A DNA stretch of 40,918 bases from an uncultured Actinomycetes bacterium (GTDB lineage Bacteria; Actinomycetota; Actinomycetes; Nanopelagicales; Nanopelagicaceae), in contig CAINVP010000055.1 in assembly GCA_903854185.1 (NCBI GenBank), positions 1-40,918 of the forward strand, given 5' to 3'. Positions within the stretch are counted from its first letter, which is position 1. The number at the start of each line of letters is the position of its first letter. Below, piece by piece: positions 30,067 to 33,640 of this stretch. The notes under the pieces were generated by a model. The model was not told the DNA's origin and searched no databases. It saw only the letters and a list, made by a program, of their open reading frames with translations. The translations under genes and the position numbers were made by a program.

Positions 30067-31518
30067 ATGCCATCAATGAGAAGAGCAAAGATCGTCTGCA
30101 CCATGGGTCCAGCGGTAGAGGCGCCTGAAAAAGTAGCAGAGTTGATCGAAGCGGGAATGAATATGGCTCGACTCAATCTCTCCCACGGCGGATATGAGGA
30201 GCATCAGGCACGGCTAGATCGAGTGCGCGCTGCCGCTGCTAAGGCCGGTAAGCCGGTCGCTATTCTCGTTGACCTTCAAGGTCCAAAGATTCGACTCGCA
30301 CGTTTTGCGGATGGCCCACATGAGCTCTTTCGCGGCGATATCTTCACCATCACCACTGATGAAGTAGAGGGTACAAAAGAGCGCGTGGGAACGACCTACA
30401 AGGGGCTTCCTGGTGATTGCCGCCCTGGCGACCGCATCCTGATTGATGACGGCAAAGTAACCGTTCAGGTTGTCGAAGTACAAGGTAACGATGTAATTAC
30501 CGAAGTTATTCAACCGGGTTTTGTCTCCAACAATAAGGGAATTAATCTTCCGGGAGTTGCCGTCTCAGTACCGGCAATGTCTGAGAAAGATATCGATGAT
30601 CTTCGCTGGGGCCTTAAAGCTGGCGCGGATTTCATTGCGCTCTCCTTCGTGCGAAATGCCAGAGATATCGATGACGTGCATCGCATCATGGATGAGGTCG
30701 GAATACGCCGTCCGGTTATTGCAAAGATTGAGAAGCCGCAGGCGGTTGATAACCTAGAAGAGATTGTCGCTGCCTTCGATGGCATTATGGTCGCACGCGG
30801 TGATCTTGGCGTTGAGATGCCGATCGAGGAAGTGCCGCTCGTTCAAAAGCGTTGCGTCATCCTTGCCCGTGAGAATGCAAAGCCAGTAATCGTTGCAACT
30901 CAGATGTTGGATTCGATGATTACCAACTCTTCACCTACGCGGGCAGAGGCGACAGATTGCGCTAATGCAGTTCTCGATGGCGCCGATGCACTTATGCTCT
31001 CGGGCGAGACGTCAGTCGGCGCCTTCGCCATCGATGCTGTAAAAACTATGGCTCGCATCATCGCTCGAACCGAAGAGGCGATGCTTAACCGAATTCCGCC
31101 GCTCGAGCACAACCCGTCGACAAAGGGTGGCGCTATCACCAAGGCTGCGGCAGAGGTAGGCGCAATCATCGGCGCGAAGTATCTCGTGGCATTTACCGAG
31201 AGCGGAGATTCTGCGCGCAGAATGTCACGCCTACGTTCGGCAATTCCCATTCTCGCCTTCACGCCAAACCAACACGTTTACAATCAACTCGCGCTCTCGT
31301 GGGGCGTCGAGCCACTCATAGCGCCAACCGTTGATCACACAGATGAGATGGTGAAGCAGGTCGATTCACTTCTGATTGATTCACATCGGGTTCAGCAAGG
31401 TGAATATGTCATCATCGTTGCTGGGTCACCGCCTGGAATCCCGGGCTCCACCAATGCCCTCCGTGCCCATCAGATTGGCGATGCCGTCTCGGGTGTAGCT
31501 CCTGCTTACCGTAAGTAA
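30067..31518 (+). CDS. pyk: Pyruvate kinase
   Basis: RRAKIVCTMGPAVEAPEKV, MNMARLNLSHGGYEEH, VMVARGDLGVEMPIEEVPLVQK, ATQMLDSMITNSSPTRAEATDCANAVLDGADALMLSGETSVG. Confidence 0.97.
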   Translation: MPSMRRAKIVCTMGPAVEAPEKVAELIEAGMNMARLNLSHGGYEEHQARLDRVRAAAAKAGKPVAILVDLQGPKIRLARFADGPHELFRGDIFTITTDEVEGTKERVGTTYKGLPGDCRPGDRILIDDGKVTVQVVEVQGNDVITEVIQPGFVSNNKGINLPGVAVSVPAMSEKDIDDLRWGLKAGADFIALSFVRNARDIDDVHRIMDEVGIRRPVIAKIEKPQAVDNLEEIVAAFDGIMVARGDLGVEMPIEEVPLVQKRCVILARENAKPVIVATQMLDSMITNSSPTRAEATDCANAVLDGADALMLSGETSVGAFAIDAVKTMARIIARTEEAMLNRIPPLEHNPSTKGGAITKAAAEVGAIIGAKYLVAFTESGDSARRMSRLRSAIPILAFTPNQHVYNQLALSWGVEPLIAPTVDHTDEMVKQVDSLLIDSHRVQQGEYVIIVAGSPPGIPGSTNALRAHQIGDAVSGVAPAYRK

Positions 31519-31556
31519 GTAGCGAAGTAGGGGATTAGCCCCATAAACTTAGGCAG

Positions 31557-31591
31557 CTCATCAGCGAAGGTAAACTCTTCGGCTGGCTGAG
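31557..31591 (+). other. Imperfect hairpin immediately upstream of the tRNA
   Basis: CTCA-t-CAG-CGAAG-gtaaact-CTTCG-g-CTG-gc-TGAG: 12 paired positions with one bulge and one internal loop, ending 7 nt before the tRNA. Confidence 0.4.
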
Positions 31592-31598
31592 ATGTTTA

Positions 31599-31671
31599 GC
31601 CTCGGTACTCCAACGGTAGAGAGGGCAGACTCAAAATCTGCACAGTGTCGGTTCGAATCCGACTCGAGGCA
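31599..31671 (+). tRNA. tRNA with CAA anticodon (Leu by anticodon), type-I short variable loop, no encoded CCA
   Basis: GCCTCGG acceptor / TCGAGGC plus A73; anticodon stem-loop GCAGA-CTCAAAA-TCTGC; variable region ACAGT (5 nt); T arm GTCGG-TTCGAAT-CCGAC. Length 73 nt. Confidence 0.9.
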
Positions 31672-31672
31672 C

Positions 31673-32266
31673 ATGAATATTGCAACGCCTCCTGCTCGCA
31701 TCCTCGTTGCTGAGGATGAGGCGATTATTCGACTGGATCTGGTCGAGATGCTCCGTGACGCCGGCTATGAAGTTGTGGCCCAAGCGACTAACGGCGTTGA
31801 GGCGATTGCCCTCGCGCGGGAGACTAAGCCAGACCTGGCGATCCTAGATGTGAAGATGCCTGAGATGGATGGCATCACCGCAGCAGAATCCATCATCGAA
31901 TTTGCTCCAGTCCTCATGTTGACCGCATTTAGCCAGAAGGAGCTCGTCGATAGAGCCCGAGATGCGGGGGCAATGGCCTACGTTGTAAAGCCCTTTGGAA
32001 TCAATGATCTCGTCCCCGCTATTGAAATTGCCATCAGCCGGCATGCTCAAATGGTCTCGCTGACTCAAGAGGTGGCAGATCTCCACGAGCGGCTAGAGAC
32101 TCGCAAAATTATCGACCGGGCAAAGGGCATCCTGATGGGGGCCCTCAATCTCACTGAGCCTCAGGCATTTAGTTGGATCCAACGGGCGGCGATGGATCGC
32201 CGAATCTCCATGAAAGCGGTCGCGCAGGCGGTTATCTCACCCGATGCCGTTCCAGATAAGCACTAG
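31673..32266 (+). CDS. ANTAR-domain response regulator (receiver plus RNA-binding ANTAR)
   Basis: ARILVAEDEAIIRLDLVEMLRDAGYEVV...LAILDVKMPEMDG...VVKPF; ANTAR-like ETRKIIDRAKGILMGALNLTEPQAFSWIQRAAMDRRISMKAVAQAVI. Resembles PdtaR-type regulators. Confidence 0.92.
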   Translation: MNIATPPARILVAEDEAIIRLDLVEMLRDAGYEVVAQATNGVEAIALARETKPDLAILDVKMPEMDGITAAESIIEFAPVLMLTAFSQKELVDRARDAGAMAYVVKPFGINDLVPAIEIAISRHAQMVSLTQEVADLHERLETRKIIDRAKGILMGALNLTEPQAFSWIQRAAMDRRISMKAVAQAVISPDAVPDKH

Positions 32267-32318
32267 CAAGAGAGCTGACTAAAGCACGCCTCAGGTTGAA
32301 CTCAAGCGGGAATAATTT

Positions 32319-32360
32319 GCAGGTGCAATAGCTTCGGAGTACATCTCAGCAGGTGAAATA
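32319..32360 (+). repeat. Phased imperfect direct repeat GCAGGTGCAATA / GCAGGTGAAATA upstream of livK
   Basis: Copies at 32319-32330 and 32349-32360, exactly 30 nt start to start, one mismatch in 12. Confidence 0.6.
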
Positions 32361-32389
32361 TTCCGTCTCACCCCTTGTCGGGGGCTGCT
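32348..32389 (+). promoter_or_regulatory. Candidate three-way-junction RNA/cruciform in the livK leader
   Basis: P1 AGCAG(32348-52)/CTGCT(32385-89), P2 GTGA/TCAC (32353-56/32368-71), P3 CCC-TTGTC-GGG (32372-82). Confidence 0.3.
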
Positions 32390-32485
32390 CGAGCCATTAA
32401 TCTTCAATCCTCCCTGTCCCGGGATTGTAAGCATGACTCCTGCAGGATGCATGTTTGCTCATTAGGCAATAACAGGAAGGTCTAC

Positions 32486-33640
32486 ATGAAGAAGAATATG
32501 AAGCTTGGCGTAGCTCTTGTTACAGCAGCGACACTCATTTCAGGTGGCGCAGTTGCAACATCAGCAAGCGCAACAACATATAAGTATTACATCGCATACC
32601 AAGGTCCATTGACTGGCGATAACAAGCAGACAGGTCTTGATGAGATCGCAGGCGTTAAGTATGCGCTCGCTCTCTACAACAAGGCTAACCCAAAGGCCCA
32701 GGTCGGGCTTAAGCAAGTTGATGATCAGGGTTCAGGCCCAGGAGCATCTGTTGTAGCACCAGGAACAGCAAAGGATAAGAGCATCCTCGCAATCGTAGGA
32801 CCTGCCTTCTCTGGCGCATCTGTTGCTTCATTCCCTTACTACAAGGCTGCAGGATTGCCATTGATTTCACCATCAGCAACTCGCGTAACTTTGACAGATC
32901 CTTCATCAACAGACTTCGGTGGTCCAGTCTTCCACCGTCTGCCATCGAAGGATGATAAGCAGGGTCCAGCTCTTGCTAAGTATGCAATTCAGGGTGTTAA
33001 GTCACCTGTTGTCTACACCGTAAATGATCAATCTTCATACGGAACCGGACTTGATGGTTACGTTCAGTCTGCTCTTAAAGCACTTGGTCACGCAGCTGTT
33101 GGCACAGATTCAGTTGATGGTACAAACACCACACTTGATTTCTCTGCAACAATCTCAAAGATCAAGGATTCAAAGACCAACGTCGTAATCTACTCAGGTT
33201 ACTACGCACAGGCAGCTGGCTTCGTTAAGCAGCTCCGTAACGCTGGCTTCACAGGTATCTTCGCATCAGGCGACGGTACATATGACCCAGGATTCATTGA
33301 TGGCGCTGGCGATGCAGCAGAAGGCGCACGCCTTACAGCTTCATCAGCAGTATTCCAGGATGCTGGCAAGGCAATTGCTGCTGACTTCAAGAAGGTCACA
33401 GGAAATGCTCCAGGAACTTACGCAACAGAAGACTTCGATGCAGCAAATATCATTCTTTCTTGCATCAAGAAGGGCAACACAACTCGCGCGAAGATCCAGA
33501 AGTGCATCAACACCGGAACATTCACAGGCTTGATGGGCAACACCATTAAGTTTGATAAGAATGGCGATACAGCTGGCGCTGGATTTATCAACGCCTTCCT
33601 CGTCACAGGTGGAACAATCATCTCAAAGGGTCAGATCTAA
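32486..33640 (+). CDS. livK: Branched-chain amino acid ABC transporter, substrate-binding protein
   Basis: MKKNMKLGVALVTAATLISGGAVATSASATTYKYYIAYQGPLTGDNKQTGLDEIAGVKYALALYN..., Peripla_BP type; signal peptide; SD AGGAAGG; followed by livHMGF. Confidence 0.93.
   Translation: MKKNMKLGVALVTAATLISGGAVATSASATTYKYYIAYQGPLTGDNKQTGLDEIAGVKYALALYNKANPKAQVGLKQVDDQGSGPGASVVAPGTAKDKSILAIVGPAFSGASVASFPYYKAAGLPLISPSATRVTLTDPSSTDFGGPVFHRLPSKDDKQGPALAKYAIQGVKSPVVYTVNDQSSYGTGLDGYVQSALKALGHAAVGTDSVDGTNTTLDFSATISKIKDSKTNVVIYSGYYAQAAGFVKQLRNAGFTGIFASGDGTYDPGFIDGAGDAAEGARLTASSAVFQDAGKAIAADFKKVTGNAPGTYATEDFDAANIILSCIKKGNTTRAKIQKCINTGTFTGLMGNTIKFDKNGDTAGAGFINAFLVTGGTIISKGQI

Follow-up and report, generated by a model that had tools for sequence, protein, structure and literature searches.

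The production of messenger RNA ends by tRNA excision, or tRNA punctuation, was reportedly described for animal mitochondria by Ojala, Montoya and Attardi in 1981. In this system, tRNAs that lie between or before coding genes are cut out, and the resulting mRNAs have no leader or almost none, which is also the outcome predicted for the locus considered here. The two systems differ in that mitochondrial tRNAs are cut after nucleotide (nt) 73 by ELAC2, whereas here the cut is predicted after an encoded C74 and no RNase Z was detected in the order. The setting differs as well, the present organisms being free-living bacteria with genomes of about 1.2-2.2 Mb, bacterial 70S ribosomes and most genes not placed behind tRNAs. 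One bacterial transcript that carries tRNAs and a protein gene and is processed is that of the E. coli thrU-tyrU-glyT-thrT-tufB operon. There, however, tufB has a normal leader with a Shine-Dalgarno (SD) sequence, and the tRNA cut does not set the start codon as the 5' end.

Actinobacterial leaderless mRNAs (Shell et al. 2015, PMC4633059; Cortes et al. 2013, PMC3898074) resemble the messages proposed here in having ATG or GTG at the 5' end and no SD. In mycobacteria, leaderless starts are ATG or GTG only, and such a codon at the 5' end is both necessary and sufficient (PMC4633059). The 5' end of those messages is the transcription start, whereas here a 5'-monophosphate end left by processing is predicted. 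Cuts between C74 and C75 of the encoded CCA, the position predicted here, have been mapped by dRNA-seq in P. acnes and S. coelicolor (PMC3848588, PMC4681348). P. acnes likewise has no obvious tRNase Z, the cuts are ascribed to no named nuclease, and they concern other Actinobacteria and mostly CCA-encoding tRNAs. These reports are not known to tie the cuts to a leaderless downstream mRNA, unlike the proposal made here. The PdtaS/PdtaR system is related through the downstream protein, which combines a receiver and an ANTAR domain; 16/16 genomes of the order carry the sequence of a PdtaS-type sensor kinase domain, and the PdtaS GAF domain was found in the source genome. In the other Actinobacteria examined, the tRNA neighbouring the regulator gene is divergent, so that the gene is off the tRNA transcript, whereas here the two are co-directional.

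In the literature searched, with most subscription papers lying outside its scope, no account of bacterial leaderless mRNAs produced by tRNA excision was found. The reading favoured here, with a probability of roughly 0.7, is that tRNA and regulator would form one transcript, that a cut after C74 would yield a leaderless mRNA, and that this layout would be general in the order.

Layout and transcription of the locus

The window, that is, the whole 40,918-nt stretch of DNA that was analysed, comes from a Nanopelagicales genome of 1.45 Mb in 119 contigs, whose relatives include Ca. Planktophila and Nanopelagicaceae/Nanopelagicales MAGs. Its relevant features are as follows.

30067..31518, + strand: pyk (pyruvate kinase), open reading frame identified from its sequence; co-directional with the tRNA and upstream of it
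31544..31549, + strand: TAAACT, possible distal -10 element, by TANNNT consensus match only
31571..31576, + strand: TAAACT, possible -10 box for the tRNA, whose 5' end lies 22 nt downstream
31599..31671, + strand: tRNA-Leu(CAA), 73 nt, short variable arm (ARAGORN and Rfam RF00005)
31632-31634, + strand: anticodon of tRNA-Leu(CAA)
31666..31669, + strand: GAGG, sole SD-like stretch, paired inside the acceptor stem, 3 nt before the ATG
31672, + strand: C74, lone nucleotide between tRNA body and start codon; predicted cut at 31672/31673
31673..32266, + strand: PdtaR-type response regulator (receiver + ANTAR), 197 aa, starting at tRNA position 75
32486..33640, + strand: likely branched-chain amino acid binding protein (livK-like), from its sequence

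The geometry claimed in the original prediction, with discriminator base A31671, a single C31672 and the regulator's ATG from 31673, is borne out by the tRNA calls and the sequence. ARAGORN and Rfam RF00005 (55.4 bits) place tRNA-Leu(CAA) at 31599-31671/72, the acceptor 3' strand is TCGAGGC (T31664-C31670), A73 is 31671, and the start codon occupies 31673-31675. The accompanying claim that GAGG is the only SD-like stretch and lies too close to the start, within the acceptor stem, is equally correct. The next in-frame ATG falls within the receiver domain. An upstream in-frame ATG at 31592, which would read through the tRNA, was rejected as the start, and it has no equivalent in the other loci with ATG or GTG (RTG) at nt 75. 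The livK-like gene is preceded by AGGAAGG, and the organism therefore probably also uses ordinary leadered starts.

The regulator matches PF00072 (receiver, 93.7 bits) and PF03861 (ANTAR, 81.2 bits), and its nearest solved structure by sequence is 1s8n (E 3e-69), which we take to be PdtaR (Rv1626) from M. tuberculosis. By this domain order and its closeness to Rv1626 it is a PdtaR-type ANTAR regulator. Single-strand folding of 31599-31720 gave a minimum free energy structure in which the acceptor strand pairs with the coding region in preference to the cloverleaf acceptor stem, but at z -1.3 this fold is uninformative. GAGGC of the acceptor 3' strand (31666-31670) can pair with GCCUC at about 31687-31691, within the first codons.

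The junction of tRNA and regulator is too short to hold a terminator or a promoter, and no terminator-like site was found in 31400-32600. Upstream, the pyk stop codon lies 80 nt from the tRNA. The window scan returned no sigma-70 double-hexamer match for a tRNA promoter; TAAACT also occurs 9-19 nt upstream of the tRNA in four related loci (L031, L032, L056 and L072). In 47 loci in which the gap was measured with the pyk C-terminus as tblastn query, pyk and the tRNA are 12-125 nt apart. Ten of these gaps span merely 12-19 nt and contain no TANNNT, which suggests that transcription at these loci probably continues from pyk into the tRNA.

A promoter of the regulator's own inside the tRNA gene would also yield a leaderless message, by transcription initiation at the ATG itself. 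Many actinobacterial leaderless genes have TANNNT directly before the start, and two junctions found by eye in the complete genome G001 fit this pattern: TAGACT stands 6 nt before the ATG of a glmU-like gene at nt 90 behind tRNA-Gln(TTG) (L286), and TAAAGT 6 nt before the ATG of the gene at nt 94 behind tRNA-Lys(TTT) (L268). Both boxes lie in the gap and look like leaderless promoters of the downstream genes. At the regulator, however, positions -12 to -7 read GACTCG (31661-31666), and a TANNNT box 4-9 nt before the RTG occurs in just 1/26 distinct nt-75 junctions. Such a promoter also leaves nt-75 starts behind many different tRNAs unexplained. With no suitable -10 found within the tRNA gene, initiation there was rejected and is considered very improbable.

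Position 75 in Nanopelagicales and in other Actinobacteria

In 36/45 related loci of the same order (L031-L075), exactly one nucleotide separates A73 from an in-frame ATG or GTG, and C74 is present in all 45. The tRNA 3' half was searched for in 296 genomes of the order and found in 261, of which 212 have C followed by RTG at nt 75. This state occurs after tRNA-Leu(CAA) in 13/17 genera, and the loci lacking it cluster in some genera. In five fetched loci (L122-L126, genera g8 and g12) the regulator was not found behind tRNA-Leu(CAA), and there position 75 is not RTG, which indicates that the tRNA itself does not require RTG. The position of the start at nt 75 (36/45 loci, 212/261 genomes) is more than chance. 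The start in this class is ATG or GTG without an SD, as in known leaderless messages. Several MAGs labelled Bifidobacterium breve or Streptomycetaceae (L049, L059, L061, L064, L073; L040, L047) have the Nanopelagicales tRNA, and those included in the tree cluster with Nanopelagicales; the labels of all these MAGs look wrong.

In 22 shifted loci, the regulator starts about 15-70 nt from the tRNA, and in nearly all of them a purine-rich SD-like site, for example GAAAGGA or GGGAGG, precedes the start. The mean anti-SD energy is -9.1 kcal/mol in the shifted loci versus -1.9 in the nt-75 class, where the value is computed on tRNA sequence and hence barely varies; three loci (L134, L138 and L128) were scored at a rule-picked start that is probably not the true one. 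The appearance of SD-like sites where the start has moved supports a leaderless start in the nt-75 class. An exception is L071, where no clear SD is present and the ATG at nt 75 is out of frame. On a tree of 91 regulators, the nt-75 state requires 7 changes and the shifted state 6.

The suggestion that a tRNA gene precedes PdtaR-type regulators in other actinobacteria is right about adjacency and wrong about orientation. In 32/33 actinobacterial loci outside the order (L078-L110), tRNA-Leu(CAA) lies beside the regulator on the opposite strand, and at the remaining one (L086) no tRNA-Leu(CAA) was found close by. One locus (L076) carries the order's own tRNA sequence, yet is divergent. The divergent tRNAs outside the order suggest that the co-directional, flush arrangement is probably derived. 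A survey of nt-75 junctions in other Actinobacteria, one locus per genome, yielded mostly short or doubtful frames and no sign that the layout is common there.

Maturation of the tRNA 3' end

In the proposed sequence of events, tRNA and regulator would be co-transcribed, from the tRNA's own promoter and/or by read-through from pyk. The 5' end of the tRNA would be made by RNase P, while an endonuclease would cut 3' of C74 and the CCA-adding enzyme would complete the CCA. The downstream product would then begin exactly at the start codon and be translated as a leaderless mRNA, a mode of initiation that is efficient in Actinobacteria from 5'-AUG or GUG, so that the tRNA would serve both as punctuation and as the 5'-end maker for the next gene. 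Sequence comparison leads us to infer the shared transcript, the position of the cut, the leaderless mode of initiation and the nuclease itself.

The original prediction had placed the cut after A73, made by an RNase Z-type enzyme and leaving C-AUG, a one-nucleotide leader. This is the textbook RNase Z site for tRNAs without an encoded CCA. RNase Z is reported in M. tuberculosis (PMC10673834), and full-length RNase Z-type matches were found in at least 12/40 genomes of the class. In 61 genomes of the order, however, the RNase Z model TIGR02651 never scored above the cut-off, nor did any match span its full length. Because class-level full-length matches also fell below the curated cut-off, the cut-off alone was not taken as the criterion. 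The matches listed for the order cover short segments, mostly in frames as long as ComEC and RNase J, and RNase Z was set aside as the 3' enzyme. An actinobacterial CCA-adding enzyme is present in 16/16 order genomes.

A cut after A73 would also leave nt 74 unconstrained in genes that do not encode CCA. C74 is encoded in 38/38 tRNA genes of the source genome and 38/38 of G001 (76/76), while nt 75-76 vary and the full CCA is encoded in 12/38 and 10/38, respectively (22/76). A C74 encoded in every one of these genes is hard to explain if it is cut off and re-added, which argues against the A73 site, although the conserved C74 could have other reasons. From C74 in 76/76 genes, the published C74/C75 maps and the lack of full-length RNase Z matches in the order, we infer a cut after C74 that would leave 5'-AUG. 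Cleavage after A73 is thus judged unlikely.

Other tRNA-gene pairs with a start at position 75

Scans of 31 genomes of the order looked for a T-loop pattern followed by C-RTG at nt 75 and, as a control, for one with RTG at nt 76. The tRNA-like matches to be fetched were partly chosen by eye, and orthologous junctions are not independent. Counted as distinct tRNA-gene pairs, 12 were found at nt 75 (the Leu(CAA)-regulator pair and 11 others) versus one at nt 76. The nt-75 pairs are:

Leu(CAA): pdtaR
Ala(GGC): leuS
Ala(GGC): short-chain dehydrogenase
Ala(TGC): cyclophilin (ppiA)
Arg(TCT): orn
Arg(TCG): Sbt_1 family transporter
Asn(GTT): ACT protein
Leu(GAG): apt
Leu(CAG): GDPD
Pro(GGG): CDP-alcohol phosphatidyltransferase (pgsA-like)
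Met(CAT): homocysteine S-methyltransferase
Lys(TTT): drug/metabolite exporter-like

In one fetched set with verified tRNAs, long frames (79 aa to more than 230 aa) open at 17/17 nt-75 junctions versus 1/13 nt-76 junctions. The lone nt-76 gene encodes 6-phosphogluconolactonase and follows tRNA-Met as C-T-ATG (L252, G031:C4:227600-228480). Behind an Asp tRNA (L190), the nt-75 RTG opens merely a 23-aa frame. In the complete genome G001, the first downstream frame of at least 100 aa begins at nt 75 (3 tRNAs) or at nt 90 or beyond, and none begins at 76-89. Start codons thus stand flush with the predicted processing site, between nt 74 and 75, at several junctions. Judged from these junctions, the layout is general to the streamlined Nanopelagicales, with about a dozen pairs, and is not special to the ANTAR gene.

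These counts also bear on the notion that the junction is mere compaction, the regulator being translated by internal initiation on an uncut or partly cut transcript, through GAGG or with no signal at all. The genomes are indeed streamlined (mostly about 1.2-2.2 Mb), and tRNA versions with A69 contain GAGG. As an SD, GAGG was nevertheless rejected: it is paired, stands 3 nt from the ATG and is missing from most other nt-75 junctions. Were compaction the sole cause, starts at 76-89 would be expected as well, yet G001 has none, and the lineages with moved starts carry SD-like sites, which speaks against internal initiation. The odds of this explanation are accordingly put quite low. The proposal of a leaderless mRNA that depends on tRNA processing gains from the missing SD, the missing -10 at the junction, the conservation of nt 75, the SD-like sites at moved starts and the 11 other pairs; the cut after A73, part of its first version, is not supported.

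Extended to the whole order of these freshwater bacteria, the claim is that tRNA excision, through a non-RNase Z cut after C74, would provide leaderless mRNAs for about a dozen genes, including leuS, orn, apt, ppiA and the regulator gene. On the sequence evidence, this broader claim appears somewhat more probable than its opposite. If true, bacteria too would make mRNA 5' ends by tRNA excision, including those of essential genes such as leuS. Mitochondrial tRNA punctuation would then have a bacterial parallel that spans several genes, in a group that ranks among the most abundant bacteria of lakes. The synthesis of the encoded proteins would be tied to tRNA maturation, and the junctions would offer a natural reporter for a tRNA 3' nuclease cutting between C74 and C75. 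Leaderless translation would let the gap between tRNA and gene shrink to one nucleotide, and the nt-75 layout would aid the annotation of gene starts after tRNAs.

The spread of the layout also affects a more specific idea, namely a dedicated circuit in which the ANTAR regulator, encoded beside a likely branched-chain amino acid transporter, is tuned by how much leucine tRNA is supplied or by its processing. tRNA-Leu(CAA) does adjoin PdtaR-type genes across Actinobacteria, and likely branched-chain amino acid transporter (liv) genes follow the regulator in the window. Outside the order, however, the divergent tRNA precludes a shared transcript, and many relatives have left the layout without losing the regulator gene. 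Functionally unrelated genes (leuS, ppiA, apt, orn and the pgsA-like gene) have the same layout, so the special link between tRNA-Leu supply and ANTAR output that had been suggested is unsupported, and such a circuit seems scarcely credible. The source genome's tRNA-Leu(CAA) and its two tRNA-Leu(TAA) (L025, L027) are all 73 nt long with a short variable arm, which is unusual for Leu. At the same locus in other Actinobacteria, the tRNA is either short (74-77 nt) or long (82-87 nt).
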